Shown here piece after piece: positions 11,516 through 20,855 of a DNA stretch of 64,000 nt. The notes under the pieces were generated by a model. The model was not told where the DNA came from. It searched no databases and saw nothing but the letters and a program-made list of their open reading frames with translations. The stretch's first letter is position 1. Every line of letters starts with the position of its first letter. Origin of the DNA: Arthrobacter sp. SW1 (GTDB lineage Bacteria; Actinomycetota; Actinomycetes; Actinomycetales; Micrococcaceae); contig NZ_MJLT01000034.1 in assembly GCF_001766675.1 (NCBI RefSeq), forward strand, positions 124,001 to 188,000, given 5' to 3'. A program made the position numbers and the translations under genes.

Positions 11516-12445
11516 GTGAGCGAGATGGCCGTGGGGGACAGTAACTTTGATTCACGACTCCGTCGTGAGGCCATGGCGTGGCTGGCCGTACGCACCAACG
11601 ATGGTGCAGAGTGGCTGACCAGACAAGACATTGAGGACTTCCACTTTGAGGGAGAACCAAGGCGGCTTCAGGCAACACAAACTGGAATTTGGAAGCCGAA
11701 AGATCTTTCCGCTGCGCTCTCAATCCAGACGGTTTACCGGGCGCCGGGTAAAGATCGACCTTACGATGACCGGGTAGGTGATGACGGGCTTCTCCGCTAT
11801 GCGTGGCGCGGCGATGACCCGAATCATCCTGACAACCGCGCACTTCGCTCGGCGATGCAACAGGAACTACCTTTGATCTGGTTCTTCGGCGTAGGCATGG
11901 CGCCGGCTGTTTTCCAGCCAGTCTTTCCGGTCTTCCTGCTTTGGGAGGAACCAGAGAAGAAGCAGTTTGTCATTGACCCTAATGTTGGAAAAGGTCTCAT
12001 CGGCAGAGAAAGTCCTATTGAGGAGCATCTCCGTCGTTACCTTATGGTGGAGACGAAGAGACGCCTGCATCAGCCCGTTTTTCGGTCGACGGTGCTTCGT
12101 GCGTATCGGAGCAGATGCTCTGTCTGCGCGTTGGCGCATCGGGAGTTGCTGGATGCCGCCCACATTATTCCTGACGCTGCGGAAGAAGGCATTGCATCGG
12201 TTGTGAATGGTATTGCGCTCTGCAAAATTCATCACGCTGCATTCGACGCTCTCATCCTTGGCATTCGTCCTGATTTCATTGTCGAAGTTCGGGAGGACAT
12301 CCTCAAAGAGGTCGATGGCCCTATGCTCAAACACGGCATTCAAGGACGCCATGGCGAGCGGCTCATGGAGCTCCCGAGAAATCGACGCGAGCACCCCCGG
12401 AAAGACCTACTTGAGCAGGCCTATGAGCGGTTCAGGACTGCCTAG
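11516..12445 (+). CDS. HNH endonuclease with SRA-like N-terminal domain (candidate modification-dependent restriction enzyme)
   Basis: 309 aa from GTG at 11516; ATG 11525 is possible. C-terminal HNH: CSVC (C201, C204), AAHIIPD (H216), NGIALCKIHHAAFD (N231, C236, H240). This is a full zinc-bound HNH of the type seen in ScoMcrA-like enzymes. The N-terminal 150 residues (FHFEGEPRRLQATQTGIWKP, LSAALSIQT, PVFPVFLLWE) resemble the SRA/PUA-like module found in front of such HNH domains, which would read modified DNA. It starts an AT-richer island. Nuclease call is strong; the modified-base specificity is inference. Confidence 0.72.
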   Translation: MSEMAVGDSNFDSRLRREAMAWLAVRTNDGAEWLTRQDIEDFHFEGEPRRLQATQTGIWKPKDLSAALSIQTVYRAPGKDRPYDDRVGDDGLLRYAWRGDDPNHPDNRALRSAMQQELPLIWFFGVGMAPAVFQPVFPVFLLWEEPEKKQFVIDPNVGKGLIGRESPIEEHLRRYLMVETKRRLHQPVFRSTVLRAYRSRCSVCALAHRELLDAAHIIPDAAEEGIASVVNGIALCKIHHAAFDALILGIRPDFIVEVREDILKEVDGPMLKHGIQGRHGERLMELPRNRREHPRKDLLEQAYERFRTA

Positions 12446-12699: not shown

Positions 12700-13908
12700 C
12701 TACTTCCTCTCAGGAAGCATGTCCTCCGGGCCTTCCGTCTCCGCTGCGGTGTCCTCGTGATTTGCAGGCGATATCGTCAGCTCGTCTGATCCCGTCGACT
12801 GACCGCCTACGGGTTCAGACAGAAGGTAAGCACGTGCTTCCGAGCGGAATCCAGAGTCAAGCTCGGCCGAAGCCACGAGGAAACCACACACGTCGGCAGC
12901 CAACTTAGCAGCTACCGGATTGAACTCCTCCTTAAATGCGTGACTTAGAGTGATTCGCCGTTTCGCGGCCATTAGCCCTGAGGCTGCTTCTATGTACCTA
13001 AGGGCTGTTTGGATCTCGCTTGGCCGACGGAGCAGCCGCGTGACGAGTTCGCGCAGGTTGGAGTAGTAAGGGGGGAGGTGGTCTAGTTCGCCGGTCCCTG
13101 GAGGAGCGACCTTTTTTAGAAGTTCGGCGGTCTCTTGCTTTTCCCGGAGGTTTACTGCACCTCCAAAAATGTATTCCTGCAAGCCCCTGTCGGGGTCACT
13201 TAAGAAAGCTCCTCGGATGTGTGCAGTAGCCTTGATGAGCGAAAAGAGGTAGAGCCAAGCGCAATCGAGAACCAATGCCAAATGTATCGGGTTGCGGTAA
13301 TCGAGATGTCTTGCGGCTTCTTTCAGGTGCGCCACCAGTTGAACCGGGTTGCGATGTTCCTGGTAGACCCAGTAATCAAATTGACGATATTCCGTCAATC
13401 CATCCAAGCGTCTGTCAAGGGAGTTGAAGGCAGCTTGGCTTTCGGCAACGAGTTTGCGGTCGAACAGGACGTCCAGGACTTCAGATGCATCGGATCGGTA
13501 CAATTGCTGCATACGAAGCAGGTCCGATGATGGCAGGACGGTTATCCCTAGACGACTCGAAAGTTGGCGCGTTGCATCGTTTACATCGTGCTCTCTGACA
13601 AGCATCACTTGGTCGGCACCGAAAAGGTCTGCAACGCCCCGTGCCCAAAACATGCGGGCCGTGGGCTTGTCGCGGCGACCCGATTTACAGTCGGCAATCG
13701 TGGTCGTCAGCCGGTAGCTTTGTGAAAGGGAAACTCCTAGGACGTCGAGATCGGTAAATGACTCTGCTCCGCTGGAACGTTGCAGTCCGTATGACCCTGA
13801 CTTTGGCTTCGGGTCGGCTCGAAGCTCTACATTCAGTCTCGTGCTTTGCCCCATGCTCCAAAGAAGAGCCCGGACACCTACCTTGAGTCCCAAGTCCAAC
13901 TCACTCAA
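12700..13908 (-). CDS. Unknown protein with PD-(D/E)xK nuclease-like N-terminus
   Basis: 402 aa. In the first 100 residues: E28 (NVELRAD), FTDLDVLGV with D53/D55, then a strand ending ADCKSG (D73-x-K75), then WARGVADLFGADQVMLV. This spacing is that of the PD-(D/E)xK fold with a D-x-K variant, as in Mrr-like and other restriction-type nucleases. The remaining 300 residues are mostly helical (RNPVQLVAHLKEAARHL, LREKQETAELLKKV) with no recognised domain, and the tail is acidic. It overlaps its upstream partner by 4 nt (ATGA), so the two are coupled. A defence role is inference. Confidence 0.65.
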   Translation of the reverse strand: MSELDLGLKVGVRALLWSMGQSTRLNVELRADPKPKSGSYGLQRSSGAESFTDLDVLGVSLSQSYRLTTTIADCKSGRRDKPTARMFWARGVADLFGADQVMLVREHDVNDATRQLSSRLGITVLPSSDLLRMQQLYRSDASEVLDVLFDRKLVAESQAAFNSLDRRLDGLTEYRQFDYWVYQEHRNPVQLVAHLKEAARHLDYRNPIHLALVLDCAWLYLFSLIKATAHIRGAFLSDPDRGLQEYIFGGAVNLREKQETAELLKKVAPPGTGELDHLPPYYSNLRELVTRLLRRPSEIQTALRYIEAASGLMAAKRRITLSHAFKEEFNPVAAKLAADVCGFLVASAELDSGFRSEARAYLLSEPVGGQSTGSDELTISPANHEDTAAETEGPEDMLPERK

Positions 13909-15185
13909 AGCGGGCTCCTTCCCATAGCCTTCTCGAAGATCTTTTCAAATTCCTTGGGCGACGGTTGAGCGGAGATCCGAAGTCTTTGGCTTGTCTGCAT
14001 CGGCGCCTGATAGTCCTTCCCGGCCGTGAGTATAGTTCTGGCGACTGCGTCATCGACGCGATGCTCAACTAACTCTCCATGAAGGATGAGGTCTCGAGCG
14101 AGTTGAAGGGCCTCCCGATTATCTTCAGTGTCGACAAATCTTGGAGTGACCCAGCTCCCGCCAGGGCGGGTATCAGGATCAAAAACAAGTAGTCCTGCAT
14201 TGCGCATCAGTTCGTACTGCCGCCTGTGTGCGCTATTTGGATTCAGGAATCCTCGGTTTGGATCTAATAGCTTGTCTATTACGTTGATGAGGCCAGAGGC
14301 GGACAACGTATTGTACTCACCGTAGTGCTCCGCGCACCGGAGGCAGGCAAGAACGGCCAAAGCCTTATCGAGGACAGGCTTCCGTGATGTGAGGAGCCGT
14401 TGATCTGCGGCGTAGGGCAATGCGGCAAATGCCTGTAGTTTGCCGTCAGGTAGGCGTACCGATGCGGCCATGACGAGGCCATTTGCCACTGCACCGTGCA
14501 AAAGCGGGTACTTCGTCGGATCGAGTTCCAGGCCTTGACGAGCTCTGACCGCAGCAAATTCCTCGATTAGACGGTCGGGTCCATGGGCTGTTACCAACGA
14601 GTCGAGCAGCTCTGGATTTTCAAAGCCAAAGAACGGCGAATATGCCACGTCGCCATCAATTGTGCGCAGGGTTCTAATAAGGCCTGCTCCAGATGCGACG
14701 TCCATAAGCTGAGGGATATCTGAACGATCTAGACCGTATGCGCTTTCCAGCTCCTCTAGGGCAACTGGCTTCTTGGCTAGGCCGTCAACCACAATCAACA
14801 GCTGCTGTTCAAGCTCAGTTGGTGAGCGATTCCGCCAAGCGCCACCAAGGAGGGAATACAGGTCGTCGTAGTATGGAACAGTTTCCGTAAATGTGGTGAT
14901 CTTGCCCCCGCGCCGCTGGACGCCTTGGACAAACCCAGCTTCTTCCAAGACACCGATGACTTCGCCAAAAGAGAGCAAGTTGACATCCAGTTGGTGCGCG
15001 GCAACTTGCATAAGGGCCTGCGCGTCAACGATGACGTCATGGCCCCGAATCAAGCCACCCAAAGTTGCTGCCATGCCGACTAGTCGTGTGTCGTTTAGCG
15101 GTGCCAACAGAGGAGCGTTCGGATCCAGGTTGCGAAGGCCTGAGTGAACGTCTTGACAGCGCAGTCCCTCATCAAACTTTTTCAA
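13905..15185 (-). CDS. Unknown 426-aa protein coupled to the nuclease-like gene
   Basis: Starts MKKFDEGLRCQDVHSGLRNL. Segments such as LNLLSFGEVIGVLEEAGFVQ and LEELESAYGLDRSDIPQLMD resemble winged-helix modules, and FVQGVQRRGGKITTFTETVPY the wing, so it may bind DNA or act as specificity partner. C-terminal half includes HRRQYELMRNAGLLVFD. No known family recognised. The ATGA overlap with the nuclease-like gene implies fixed stoichiometry. Codon use is less GC-biased than the neighbouring core genes. Confidence 0.6.
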   Translation of the reverse strand: MKKFDEGLRCQDVHSGLRNLDPNAPLLAPLNDTRLVGMAATLGGLIRGHDVIVDAQALMQVAAHQLDVNLLSFGEVIGVLEEAGFVQGVQRRGGKITTFTETVPYYDDLYSLLGGAWRNRSPTELEQQLLIVVDGLAKKPVALEELESAYGLDRSDIPQLMDVASGAGLIRTLRTIDGDVAYSPFFGFENPELLDSLVTAHGPDRLIEEFAAVRARQGLELDPTKYPLLHGAVANGLVMAASVRLPDGKLQAFAALPYAADQRLLTSRKPVLDKALAVLACLRCAEHYGEYNTLSASGLINVIDKLLDPNRGFLNPNSAHRRQYELMRNAGLLVFDPDTRPGGSWVTPRFVDTEDNREALQLARDLILHGELVEHRVDDAVARTILTAGKDYQAPMQTSQRLRISAQPSPKEFEKIFEKAMGRSPL

Positions 15186-15690
15186 GCTCCACTACACTTT
15201 CCGGCGACGCCGCCCACACATCGGATCTTGCTACGAAACGTGATCATATAGTCCAGGGGCCTGGAAATGGGCCTGTGACGGACATTCTTGGCGTTCTTCT
15301 GCTTGAAGGGGTGGTTTCGCTGCGCCGAGCCTGAGGGGCGGAACCCGTTTCATTGCTGAATTCAGGCTGAGACCGTCCACGGTACCAAAGCTTTCGATGG
15401 CCGACTCTATGCAGCCGGCACCAAAGGCGAAGCGCCAAGCTGGGCACTCTTTTGTTGGAATTCGTTCAAATTAGATTTTCGATGACCTTGCGTGTAGACC
15501 TAACCTGGAAACGATCCTGGATCGGCGGCTTCCAGCAACCGATTGACCAAAGCATGGAATTGCTAGCCAAGGCCCTTCGACTGGGTCGTGGTTTGGAGAG
15601 GCACCCACGAGGAAAGGCGTCGGAAGCTGCGTCCCGCCGCCTAAGGTAGGACCACCGCCCACGGTTACGCAGGGAGATTGGAGATGGCTA
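15186..15690. other. Intergenic, no recognisable feature
   Basis: About 500 nt between the divergently oriented pair and the HNH-like gene. Short open frames in both strands do not look coding. The stretch is of mixed composition and may contain promoters for both sides and debris of earlier insertions. No repeat, tRNA or att site seen. Confidence 0.4.
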
Positions 15691-16509
15691 GTGGCTGAAG
15701 TTGATCAAGCTCCGGAAAATGGGCAGAGGCCGTGCTTATTGTGCGGAACGCTTGACGATCCCACGGTCGAACACATCGTTCCTCAGGCGCTCTGGAAGCG
15801 CTTCGGCCTCGACCCAGATCACGATGACCTTGCGCGGTTCCGAACGGATCTCTGCTACCAACATAATCAGGCCACCAGCGCACTCCACCAGCGACCCCAG
15901 ATGCTGGATCTTATCGAAAAGGGCACTCCCGTCACGAAAAAGACGCTGCAGCATCTCGGCGACTGGGCCATTTGGGTGACGCTGCTGCTCAGTCTTGCCC
16001 GCGGCTCGGGGGTACTCGGTGCAGACGCCAGCCGCAAGATGCTCCGCGGCCGGTTCGATAAAGATTCCGGCGGCGGTACGCCCAAAGGTTTCCGGGTGTA
16101 CGCCGCGGGGATCGATGACACCGCCGAGGCTGCAGAAACGGACATCAAGCCCTACGTTCTGGCACTCAGGGGCGACTCACGTGTCTTGCTTCGGGACGAT
16201 AAACCCATCGGGTTCAGCGTCCAAGTTGGTCCGATCAACGCCTCGGAAGCGATCCGGCTCGGCAAGATCGCATTGCTTGTCTTGGGTCCGACCCACGAGT
16301 CCGGCGACGATCATCAGGCACGTCTCGACAAAGCCGCAGCCCAAGTCGGCCTGGAGCGAATTTGGCCACTGAATGATGCCCTGCCAGCGCTGGGGCCAAC
16401 CCAAATCAGCATGGCTAACGTCAGTCGCCTGTTCACGGTGATGCCGATCGGTGCGGACCACTCATTGATGCCCAAAGTGCTTCAGGAAATGCACGCTAGA
16501 GAGACCTAA
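15691..16509 (+). CDS. HNH-like zinc-motif protein, unknown function
   Basis: 272 aa from GTG at 15691 with GGAGAT upstream. The first 60 residues hold CLLCGT (C15, C18), TVEHIVPQALWKRFG (E27, H28) and LCYQHNQAT (C55, H58, N59), the arrangement of HNH/treble-clef nucleases of the 'EHIxPxxL' type. The remaining 200 residues have no recognised domain. Lies between the nuclease-like operon and the big NTPase, so an accessory, possibly defensive, role is likely; this is inference. Confidence 0.65.
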   Translation: MAEVDQAPENGQRPCLLCGTLDDPTVEHIVPQALWKRFGLDPDHDDLARFRTDLCYQHNQATSALHQRPQMLDLIEKGTPVTKKTLQHLGDWAIWVTLLLSLARGSGVLGADASRKMLRGRFDKDSGGGTPKGFRVYAAGIDDTAEAAETDIKPYVLALRGDSRVLLRDDKPIGFSVQVGPINASEAIRLGKIALLVLGPTHESGDDHQARLDKAAAQVGLERIWPLNDALPALGPTQISMANVSRLFTVMPIGADHSLMPKVLQEMHARET

Positions 16510-17114: not shown

Positions 17115-20100
17115 ATGCAGACAAATGATTCCCACAGAACCGAACCTCCTGCCCGCCCTGATACGGCGAACGGTCCTGGCGGGGGCGATGCCGCGGAAGC
17201 CCAAGAAGATCGGGCCCCAGTTGGGCTGATTCCTTTGGTTCCGCGACTTGTCGATGACCAGCACAGTGTTTATGTGCGGCATCTGAAGAATGCACTTACG
17301 GGGTCGGATCGAGATCTTTACCGCAACATCGCCCTGACGGGAAGCTACGGTTCTGGTAAGAGCAGCATCCTGCAGTCGCTCGACGGACCGAAAGTCCTCA
17401 ACCTCTCGCTTTCTACACTGGGCGACGAGCCTCCGGTGGGGCAGAACGGGGCGCCTCCGGTTTCGAAGACCAATAGGATTCAGAAGGAACTCGTTAAGCA
17501 GCTGCTCTATCGTGAGGACCCCTCGGATGTCCCGGACTCCAGGTACCGGAGAATCGGGTCCTTCAAATTGGTTCGGGAAGCCAGTTTGGCAGTATTTTTC
17601 GCGGCTGGCCTGGTGTTGCTGGGATATCTCACCCGCTTCACGGATCGCCTTGTGAACTTCGCGGGCAGCGACCCGGCCGCGCGGGTTGGCATGCACGTGG
17701 CATTGTTCATTTTCCTGGCTTTGGTGGTCTTCCTGGCCCGGAAAATTTTCCACAACAGGTTTTGGATCGAGAAGTTCGTCGCCGGCCCGGCAACCGTCAC
17801 CTTGACCAGTTCCGGCAGCTACTTCGATGAGTATCTAGATGAAATTGTGTACTTCTTTGAGGTGACGGACTACGACGTCGTGGTTTTCGAAGACATCGAC
17901 AGGTTTGAAGACCCACACATCTTCGAGACGCTGCGCGAGTTGAACACCCTGCTGAACAATTCCAAGCAGCTGCGCCGGAAGATCCGTTTCGTTTATGCCA
18001 TTAAGGACAGCATCTTCGAACAGCTCGGGGCAATCGACCAAGACACTCCGTCGATCGGTTCTCTCCAGGACAGCGAAACTTCCCCTGCTCTGGACCAGTC
18101 GGCTGACGTTGCCCGTGTCGAGATTGAACGGGCTAACCGAACGAAGTTCTTCGATCTGGTCATTCCTGTCGTGCCGTTCATTACCCATCGGAGCGCGCGT
18201 GATCACATGACAGACGTACTGACTGGATCAGGCCTGGATATCGACCCACACCTTGTCACCTTGGTCTCTAGATACACGGCTGACATGAGGTTAATCAAGA
18301 ACATCCATAACGAGTACGTGGTCTTCCGCGAGCAGCTTCTCCTAGCGGAAGGTCATTTGCCGGGCTTGAAACCGGAGTCGGTGTTTTCGATGGTCGTTTA
18401 CAAGAACATTCATCTGTCGGACTTCGAAGACATCCGGACGGGTTCCAGTCAGCTGGACAAGCTCTACGGGTACGGCCGGGATCTGGTCACCGAAAACGTC
18501 AGAATGATCGATGAGGAAATCCTCAGGCTCGAACAGAGGCTCCGCCACATGGACGCAGCGGCCGAGGTGGCTAACTCTTTGGGTGAGCGCTTGGATCAGT
18601 ACATCCGCCGTGTTCTGCGGCACTCAGGCCTCAGTGCCGCGTTCCAGGTACAGAAGGGCGCGGAAACGCTCAAACCGGAGGATCTGAGGACCACGAGCTT
18701 CTGGGAGTCCTTTACGGAACGGCAGCAGCAGCTGCTGGTACCCATAAACTCGCATGAACGCAAGGTCTTCACCTATATGGACGTGGTAGAAGAGCTGGGC
18801 GCGGACTTCGTCCCCGAACGCTGGGAGAAACACGAGCGGGCCAAAGCGAACTCCAGATTGGCTGCTATCCGCAAGACGAGGGCCATGCTGCTGCGGGCTG
18901 ACATGGCCGATCTGATGGAGAGGCCGGAAACCTTGGCGGTGGATAGGCAAGCCCTGACATTCGCAGAACTGGCGTCTAGGAATTTAGGGTCACCGCTAGC
19001 GCGCGATCTCGTCGCTTCCGGCTACATTGACCAGAACTTCTCTCTGTACGCTGCCCAGTTCCTCGGCGTGTACATCAGCCTCCAGGCGATGAACTTCCTC
19101 CTGCACAACGTTCAGCCCAACCGTATGGACATCAACTTCTCGTTCTCATCGTCGAAGGAAATCGAAGCAGTTCTAGACGAGGCCGGTGAATCGTTTCTTC
19201 ACGACCGAAGCATCTACAACCTCGCGATCATGGATTACCTACTGTCCCGCGAGGATCCTCGCTGTGAGGATGCGGTTCGGAAACTCTCCGCTCCGGGAAC
19301 CGACGAGCAGATGTTTCTAAACGCCTACCTTGCGCGAGGGAACCAGCGTGAAGCCCTCTACCGACGAATGGCTAGGTATTCCGCCGGTATCTTCGACACT
19401 ATTGTCAACGGCGATAGCATCCCAGATGACATGCGTGCACCCCTCTTCAGCGCCGCCATGTCAGGTTATCGGCCTGAGATCGGCTACACGATGGACGAGT
19501 CAATAGCGGTCTTCGTCAAGGGCAACTACGAAGCATTGAACGTCCTGACCGTGACTCAGGACGAACCGGAACGGGCCGCAGCAGCCATCGCGGTCCTGAC
19601 ACTGCTGCAAGTGCAGCTGGGGTCATTGGCCCCGCTGAACACTCAGATTCAACGTGCAGCTGTGGCTGGTAGCCTCTACGACCTCACAGTAGAAAACCTC
19701 ATCACCGCTCTCGGCGGCCAGGAGGACCTCTCCCTGGACGCCATCAAAGACAAGGATCCCAACGTCTACTATTACGCTCTGGTCCAAGCAGAACGGTATG
19801 TCCCTCTTGTGACCAACGAGCCGGCGATCTCGCCTACAGTTAGGTCCCAGTCCCGATTCATCGAGATCCTCCGGGACGTCGCGGAAAGCAACGGCCCCGC
19901 TGTGCCTTTGGTCGCCCGGCACGCCTCACCTGACTGTGTTGTCAAGAACATCGCGGAGGTCGACATCGCCCTTTGGCCGGCTCTGGCATGGGAGAAAAGG
20001 TTCCCACCGACTTTCGCCAATCTCGATGCCTACGTGGAAGGGAACGGCGGCATCATTGACGAAGCCCTAGCCGTCGTTCTGCAGGCCGCCGGCAGCGTCC

Positions 20101-20855
20101 AGGACCACGAGGGCGTGGAGGAGGAAATGAAGGCGAACCTTGCCATTCTTATCCTCAACGCGGCCGCAGTCCTGCCGGACCCGGCCTTGCGAGTCCGGCT
20201 AGCTGACAGTCTAGCGCTCAAGAATTACGTTAACGTCACCCGTATCGCGGTCGAACCCGGAAGGTTCCTAGGGCTCATGATCGGTGAACGAATCATCGAT
20301 GACACAGAGTCATCCTTCGAACCTGCCATTGGTTTGGACTGGCCTACCCGGGAGTTCGCGATCGGTCGGTCCGGTGCTTTCCTGGAGTACATGACGCCAC
20401 GGCACGTGCCGGCTGAAGATCTTGGACTGTTGCTAACCAGCAAAACCGTTCCTGCGGAGGTGAAGGGCGCAGTAGTCATGAGACTTGCGGAATTCGGTCC
20501 GGGGGCCTCCCGGTCAGCTCTTTCAGAGGCAGCCAGCTACGCGACGATGACAGGGATCGCCCTAGATGAAGCAGCATTCCGTGTCCTGGCTGAAGGAAAG
20601 GCCGACCCCGGGACCATTGTGGGCTTGCTCGAACCCTTCCTTGAAACCTTTGGCTACGATGCCGTCGAAGAAATCATGGTGCTGATGGGGCGGCCGTATT
20701 CGAGTCTTGCAATCCGGGCCGGCCAGCATGTGGTGCTCCCCAGGAACCGGGAGCATCTGGCCCTTGCAAGGTTCGTCGAAACTCACGGGAACGCGAAATC
20801 GGACAACTGGGACAAGGAAAAACCAGAACTGAGGATCTACATGAAGAGAAGCTGA
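17115..20855 (+). CDS. Large membrane-anchored P-loop NTPase (YobI/KAP-like)
   Basis: 1246 aa. Walker A GSYGSGKS at 76-83. Two membrane helices lie between Walker A and B (about 156-173 and 190-208: ASLAVFFAAGLVLLGYL and VALFIFLALVVFLARKIF). Walker B DVVVFEDIDRF at 254-263, then KIRFVYAIKDSIF as sensor strand. Helices inserted between the two motifs are characteristic of YobI-like and KAP NTPases. The 900-residue C-terminal part is mostly helical without known repeats and could be a sensor or effector region. Family members are associated with toxin and conflict loci. ATG at 17115 follows GGAGG. Stand-alone gene in the accessory island. Confidence 0.75.
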   Translation: MQTNDSHRTEPPARPDTANGPGGGDAAEAQEDRAPVGLIPLVPRLVDDQHSVYVRHLKNALTGSDRDLYRNIALTGSYGSGKSSILQSLDGPKVLNLSLSTLGDEPPVGQNGAPPVSKTNRIQKELVKQLLYREDPSDVPDSRYRRIGSFKLVREASLAVFFAAGLVLLGYLTRFTDRLVNFAGSDPAARVGMHVALFIFLALVVFLARKIFHNRFWIEKFVAGPATVTLTSSGSYFDEYLDEIVYFFEVTDYDVVVFEDIDRFEDPHIFETLRELNTLLNNSKQLRRKIRFVYAIKDSIFEQLGAIDQDTPSIGSLQDSETSPALDQSADVARVEIERANRTKFFDLVIPVVPFITHRSARDHMTDVLTGSGLDIDPHLVTLVSRYTADMRLIKNIHNEYVVFREQLLLAEGHLPGLKPESVFSMVVYKNIHLSDFEDIRTGSSQLDKLYGYGRDLVTENVRMIDEEILRLEQRLRHMDAAAEVANSLGERLDQYIRRVLRHSGLSAAFQVQKGAETLKPEDLRTTSFWESFTERQQQLLVPINSHERKVFTYMDVVEELGADFVPERWEKHERAKANSRLAAIRKTRAMLLRADMADLMERPETLAVDRQALTFAELASRNLGSPLARDLVASGYIDQNFSLYAAQFLGVYISLQAMNFLLHNVQPNRMDINFSFSSSKEIEAVLDEAGESFLHDRSIYNLAIMDYLLSREDPRCEDAVRKLSAPGTDEQMFLNAYLARGNQREALYRRMARYSAGIFDTIVNGDSIPDDMRAPLFSAAMSGYRPEIGYTMDESIAVFVKGNYEALNVLTVTQDEPERAAAAIAVLTLLQVQLGSLAPLNTQIQRAAVAGSLYDLTVENLITALGGQEDLSLDAIKDKDPNVYYYALVQAERYVPLVTNEPAISPTVRSQSRFIEILRDVAESNGPAVPLVARHASPDCVVKNIAEVDIALWPALAWEKRFPPTFANLDAYVEGNGGIIDEALAVVLQAAGSVQDHEGVEEEMKANLAILILNAAAVLPDPALRVRLADSLALKNYVNVTRIAVEPGRFLGLMIGERIIDDTESSFEPAIGLDWPTREFAIGRSGAFLEYMTPRHVPAEDLGLLLTSKTVPAEVKGAVVMRLAEFGPGASRSALSEAASYATMTGIALDEAAFRVLAEGKADPGTIVGLLEPFLETFGYDAVEEIMVLMGRPYSSLAIRAGQHVVLPRNREHLALARFVETHGNAKSDNWDKEKPELRIYMKRS

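Follow-up and report, generated by a model that had tools for sequence, protein, structure and literature searches.

A conserved two-gene operon for a predicted Mrr-like nuclease and a partner with winged-helix similarity, probably a small system of defence against foreign DNA

Mrr cuts modified DNA alone, and a Mrr-like nuclease is also part of ZorD, which is described in PADLOC as a SWI2/SNF2 helicase with such a nuclease. BrxA and DUF4007 are described as DNA-binding components of BREX and related systems that combine helix-turn-helix (HTH) and winged-helix folds (PMC12839542), and the main text on DefensePredictor reports that new defence systems of E. coli often join a PD-(D/E)XK core to other, undescribed parts (PMC13092281). 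A gene pair in a 64,000-nt stretch of DNA from Arthrobacter sp. SW1 (hereafter the window) bears some resemblance to all of these. Its downstream gene encodes a 402-residue protein, A, with a predicted Mrr-type nuclease domain as in the defence protein ZorD, whereas the pair lacks the helicase and has no credible match in PADLOC. Its upstream gene encodes a 426-residue protein, B, with putative winged-helix regions, whereas several winged helices are described for the defence-associated DNA-binding proteins BrxA and DUF4007 (PMC12839542). Comparison with related sequences suggests that the pair probably serves as a small system of defence, directed at foreign DNA and absent from the family libraries searched. 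The two genes are arranged as follows:

13905..15185, minus strand: gene B, first in the operon, winged-helix-like partner of 426 residues, TTG start (open reading frame; start aligned with relatives)
12700..13908, minus strand: gene A, second in the operon, predicted Mrr-like nuclease of 402 residues, TTG start (open reading frame; alignment of 18 sequences)
13905..13908, minus strand: 4-nt overlap TTGA, comprising the stop of B and the start of A

The two long overlapping frames are those reported in the initial annotation, except that the overlap was given there as ATGA; it reads TTGA in the window because gene A starts with TTG. ATGA is found in five of the related loci (L001, L008, L011, L027, and L148), and the TTG start of window B aligns with the same residue as the ATG of L001 and L002.

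The identification of A as a PD-(D/E)xK protein, and specifically as a Mrr-like nuclease, is supported by profile comparison. Residues 1-137 of A matched a profile of 14 Mrr_cat domains (Pfam PF04471; 14 of the 17 Mrr_cat places found in related genomes) with an hhalign probability of 95.8% (P 3.4e-9) over 112 columns, whereas 30 column-shuffled versions reached at most 0.6% and neither the C-terminal part of A nor protein B gave a match (0.1 and 0.7, respectively). This alignment places D55 opposite the Mrr Asp, D73-x-K75 opposite Q-x-K, and residue 9 opposite the Glu of helix 1. The features of A are:

13498..13908, minus strand: predicted Mrr-like PD-(D/E)xK domain, residues 1-137 (hhalign to the Mrr_cat profile)
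13744..13752, minus strand: D53-x-D55, with D55 aligned with the Mrr Asp (each Asp in 18 of 18)
13684..13692, minus strand: D73-x-K75, with K75 aligned with the Mrr Lys (D or E in 18 of 18; K in 17 of 18, T in L007)
12703..13497, minus strand: mainly helical C-terminal region, residues 138-402, of no known family, with invariant G250 (secondary structure of the AlphaFold model; G250 in 18 of 18)

Among 18 A sequences (L009 trimmed to a later start, L023 and L025 extended upstream in frame), there is no variation at D53, D55, R85, W88, G91, or G250; position 73 holds D in 14 sequences and E in four, and position 52 holds T in 17. The conserved and putatively catalytic site can be written as T-D53-x-D55...(D/E)73-x-K75. 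Four of its residues (D53, D55, D73, and K75) had been singled out from the window alone, together with E28 as a fifth active-site residue; the latter is E in only four of the 18 sequences, and it is residue 9 that takes the place of the Mrr helix-1 Glu. Residue 9 divides the family into proteins with K (11 of 18, including the window) and proteins with E (7 of 18). In addition to the Lys at this position, A differs from Mrr in its separate helical C-terminal region, its conserved second gene, and its sub-threshold Pfam scores: single-sequence scans gave sub-threshold Mrr_cat matches for three of the 18 A proteins (best E 0.022) and none for window A. In 20,000 shuffles of residues 1-140, the pattern DxD-x(15-20)-[DE]xK arose in 1.7%, and with a preceding Glu in 0.4%. 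The motif alone is thus modest evidence, and the nuclease claim is carried by the residue conservation and the match to the Mrr profile.

The similarity of B to winged-helix regulators, which had been noted as winged-helix-like segments, is moderate, though not decisive, in a first region and lower in another:

14871..15128, minus strand: first winged-helix-like region, approximately residues 20-105 (hhalign to MarR and IclR profiles)
14631..14834, minus strand: second, probable winged-helix-like region, approximately residues 118-185 (hhalign to the MarR profile)

In segments chosen by eye, residues 1-115 gave hhalign probabilities of 53.6% to MarR and 42.5% to IclR (P 2-4e-5). For the second region, the probability was 25-27% against MarR (P about 1.4e-4; 27% with residues 100-190) and 2.5% against IclR. 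The profiles comprised 16 MarR loci and 18 IclR loci, picked from 30 each. A third stretch of B reached at most 9.4% to winged-helix profiles, column shuffles of the segments reached at most 0.4% (at most 0.3% for the second region), and whole-length B recovered the same two places. An hmmsearch of PDB sequences listed IclR, ArsR, and MarR regulators among unrelated proteins for the first region (E 0.03-0.8), and Rrf2 and NmtR for the second (E 0.02-0.04). Against thin profiles of DUF4007 (three sequences) and BrxA (six of ten places, one other being excluded because of stops and three left aside as short or weak), B reached an hhalign probability of 0.1% each and was placed in neither family. 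B was better conserved than A in 16 of the 17 comparisons in which A identity exceeded 40% (mean 56% versus 51%); this speaks against the proposed specificity module, if that is taken to mean a rapidly evolving recognition subunit.

The two genes form a conserved operon. The pair was found together across phyla, in 21 distinct instances from Actinomycetota, Bacillota, and Pseudomonadota, and B precedes A on the same strand in all 21. The frames overlap in 18 of these, by 4 nt in ten, by 1 nt in two, and by 11-35 nt in six (for this count, the start of L025 is moved to an in-frame upstream ATG and the longest frame is used in L009); the other three are separated by gaps of 2, 6, and 70 nt. In a 396-genome phylum sample that included the own genome, the B profile was found in six genomes and the A profile in eight, and all six B genomes also hold A. 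Two other A matches in this sample were set aside: that in G061 is an 88-residue remnant of the end of A with no B, and that in G394 was judged to be due to chance, since it spans 43 aligned positions at E 7e-4, lacks a partner, and lies in a stretch with a DnaK-like open reading frame by eye. Searches with A alone, made once the profiles had been built, yielded three further plasmids (Mesorhizobium, Rhodococcus, and Streptomyces anulatus), all of which carry B directly upstream (profile E 1.8e-47 to 3e-88) and the same site pattern in A.

The alignments comprise 18 distinct loci, or 19 with L003, which is left out of the 21 pairs because it is 97.9% identical to L002 over 12.8 kb; copies on plasmids of the same or sister species (a second Priestia, a second Burkholderia, and three further Vibrio) are likewise not counted. 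Close relatives occur in Arthrobacter sp. EpRS71, Nocardioides sp. Root140, and one Propionibacteriales metagenome-assembled genome. A single distant relative was found within the genus, and the phylum sample contributed others; plasmid searches yielded copies from Streptomyces, Mycolicibacterium, Priestia, Komagataeibacter, Roseomonas, Burkholderia, Vibrio, Rubrobacter, and Pseudarthrobacter.

A and B have diverged together. Their pairwise identities correlate with r 0.94 over 18 loci, a value reached in none of 10,000 permutations (maximum 0.62), and the correlation is 0.71 among 135 distant pairs. Differences from L001 are biased to the third codon position in both genes (120/68/255 in A and 82/38/271 in B). 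Plain tblastn over the 19 loci matched A in 18 and B in 11. Within 8-26 kb of the window, DNA similarity to L001 is limited to 12812-15195, the DNA matches to five other loci are confined to the pair (one extends 10 bases beyond the B start), and five other window proteins (two HNH-type, the YobI-like NTPase, a trypsin-like, and a PhnD-like protein) had no match in the 19 loci at E 1e-4. Since homology between loci ends at the two genes, A and B look like the complete module. The G+C content of the pair is 55.0%, compared with 65.6% for the whole window, and values of 56.6% at 11.5-17 kb and 57.3% for the YobI-like gene contrast with 68.4% at 1-11 kb and 67.0% at 24-64 kb, a pattern indicative of an acquired island some 9 kb long. 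In a comparison aimed at an empty site, no close counterpart was found for the PhnD-like and trypsin-like genes that flank it (best 38% and 34% identity, 34 other genomes per search). Promoter and terminator patterns were not above chance.

Taken together, these features suggest an operon that is rare, mobile, and self-contained and whose target is most likely foreign DNA. We are inclined, with some reserve, to regard the pair as an autonomous, horizontally moving DNA-interference module, in which B would bind DNA via its winged helices and form a complex with A, delivering or licensing the Mrr-like nuclease domain, so that A would cut invading DNA of a phage or a competing plasmid. A Walker A pattern occurs in only two of the 18 A proteins, in both cases inside the nuclease Lys segment, and in none of the 19 B proteins, and no methyltransferase was common to the loci viewed. 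Given that neither protein shows a convincing Walker A motif and that the loci share no methyltransferase, self is probably not discriminated from non-self via a cognate host methylation mark; the distinction probably depends on some feature of the incoming DNA, for example a foreign modification, an intermediate of replication, or a transfer structure, or on B keeping A inactive.

Several observations weigh against an interference module of this kind. The Lys that the clade of the window has in place of the helix-1 Glu of Mrr enzymes could weaken metal binding, and L007 carries T at K75. Profile searches of solved structures gave no nuclease match for A, and those with B also list the unrelated CheA, an AhpD-like protein, and importin beside the regulators. 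Structure prediction, which had been suggested as a check, did not decide the matter: the two AlphaFold models, made from alignments of four sequences, are poor (mean predicted local distance difference test [pLDDT] 47.8 and 42.6), and neither fold is therefore shown by structure. The order of helices and strands in the model of A is compatible with a nuclease core, but the pLDDT of residues 1-185 is under 50; block means are 48-81 for residues 181-370 and lower elsewhere. Several copies lie among insertion sequences (L024) or conjugation genes (L026 and L149), and a Streptomycetaceae plasmid carries B without A (L028, 6998-8272). The defence genes near the pair were picked by eye without a background rate, and eight of the 21 pairs had no neighbour scanned.

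A possible, though less probable, explanation is a two-subunit modification-dependent (type IV-like) restriction system, in which either protein would recognize foreign DNA that carries methylation or another modification, with A as the cutting enzyme. The Mrr-like catalytic domain of A would fit such a system, as does the lack of a common methyltransferase, which makes an ordinary restriction-modification (R-M) arrangement unlikely; a linked cognate methyltransferase, as in type II R-M, was not found in a scan that took in neither the flanks of L001, L002, L009, and L022 nor the remainder of the window. However, Pfam scans identified no modified-base reader domain in A or B, and Mrr-type enzymes are not known to need a partner of 420 residues. 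Furthermore, R-M methylases lie near five of the 21 pairs (L005/L132, L007/L130, L030, L148, and L150), and there, depending on the mark, a nuclease that requires methylation could be harmful to the host.

It is rather unlikely that the pair is a toxin-antitoxin or abortive infection system, in which A would be a toxic nuclease and B its inhibitor and repressor, able to bind DNA, until a disturbance of B by infection or competition sets A free. The inhibitor-first order with frequently overlapping frames and the winged-helix similarity of B are consistent with this scheme; moreover, B persists alone in L028 and A without B is found only as the fragment in G061, as would be expected if A were harmful without B. 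On the other hand, B is larger than A in 19 of the 21 pairs with the starts used, B matches no Pfam antitoxin family, and by eye the window, L001, and L002 seem to share none of the inverted repeats that were listed upstream of B. This scheme and the interference module may be one thing seen from two sides.

It is likewise doubtful that the pair works for the plasmid itself, in transfer, in entry exclusion, or in competition with other plasmids, instead of in phage defence. Fifteen of the 21 pairs are on plasmid records, which would fit such a role, but the share is partly a search effect because the plasmid collection was the one most searched by protein; in the phylum sample, three of the six copies are on contigs matching named plasmids, and the copies of the window, L001, and L002 sit in contigs of 0.3 to 2.6 Mb. 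The pair adjoins mobF relaxase and conjugation genes in Rhodococcus pRZP5 (L149, 3506-6125) and Roseomonas pOT10-2 (L026, 6661-9110), possibly a transfer-region position. Phage records held no relative of window A, window B, or Komagataeibacter A, no protein of the E clade having been tried there, and three scans of viral contigs with single proteins also found none. A housekeeping complex for DNA repair or processing, for which the retention of both proteins as a pair across phyla might speak, is highly improbable, given that the full-length pair is rare and patchy (two of 59 relatives and six of 396 phylum genomes, the own genome included in both), is low in G+C, and has no neighbours in common among those tested.

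The initial annotation held that neither protein belongs to a known family, and this is borne out at the level of library searches, except that A matches Mrr by profile. The 18 nucleases and the 19 partners gave no credible match in Pfam or PADLOC 2.0.0 (in PADLOC, E was 0.012 at best for either set), nor did the window proteins in NCBIfam or the nucleases in PHROGs (one member of 18 at E 0.0079). No recognizable description of the pair was found in the literature, of which supplements and bioRxiv lay outside the search, so that an earlier description there is possible. The main text on DefensePredictor does not contain the words "winged" or "Mrr" (PMC13092281); one of its 42 systems may nevertheless overlap with the pair. 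Tentatively, then, the pair could represent an undescribed minimal immune family, in which a Mrr-type nuclease is aimed and restrained by a multi-winged-helix protein without an ATPase, methylase, guide, or second messenger, and which is exchanged on plasmids across at least three phyla. If A and B do cut foreign DNA, they would do so with two proteins, without an energy-driven sensor or protective methylation of their own, and the manner in which the host is spared would pose a new problem, one that is testable with two genes. Defence-finding programs also gain two profiles from the pair, for proteins now annotated as "hypothetical" or, once, as "response regulator transcription factor". The latter is the nuclease gene of the Pseudarthrobacter plasmid pACHL02 (L029, 6920-8140), which looks like a misannotation.

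The initial annotation also placed the pair beside restriction-type genes. Many copies indeed adjoin restriction or defence genes, and the pair often does so at the loci scanned; as the neighbours were chosen in the manner described above, this association is suggestive only. PADLOC matches at E 1e-5 or better were found for two of three hand-picked neighbours in the window (an HNH protein and the YobI-like/Tmn protein), for eight of ten in a first set from other loci (a type IIG-like helicase, a restriction endonuclease, E1-E2, pPIWI-RE, PDC-S02/ZorD-like, NsnA, NsnB, and a type II methylase), and for eight of ten in a second set (a helicase, two methylases, a restriction endonuclease, two RmrA-like, and two more generic HTH proteins). 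The scanned neighbours cover 13 of the 21 pairs, and 11 of these 13 have a match at E 1e-5, some of them to generic HTH proteins.

In the window, the plus-strand gene at 11516-12445 encodes an HNH nuclease whose C-terminal part is like phosphorothioated-DNA-binding restriction enzymes, below the NCBIfam cut-off (62 versus 180 bits), and that at 15691-16509 (plus strand) carries a CxxC...EHIVP...HN pattern that is HNH-like by eye, with no Pfam, PADLOC, or NCBIfam match. The 1246-residue P-loop NTPase at 17115-20855 (plus strand) is YobI-like (Pfam PF20693, E 4e-113; PADLOC Tmn, E 1.7e-48); its gene is part of the same low-G+C stretch and probably has a defence role separate from that of the pair. 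On pACHL02, a gene for a RmrA-like ImmA/IrrE peptidase (L029, 4957-5613) ends 36 nt before B, and genes of the HTH or ImmA/IrrE type are likewise found no more than a few kb away from the pair in L001, L002, and L021.

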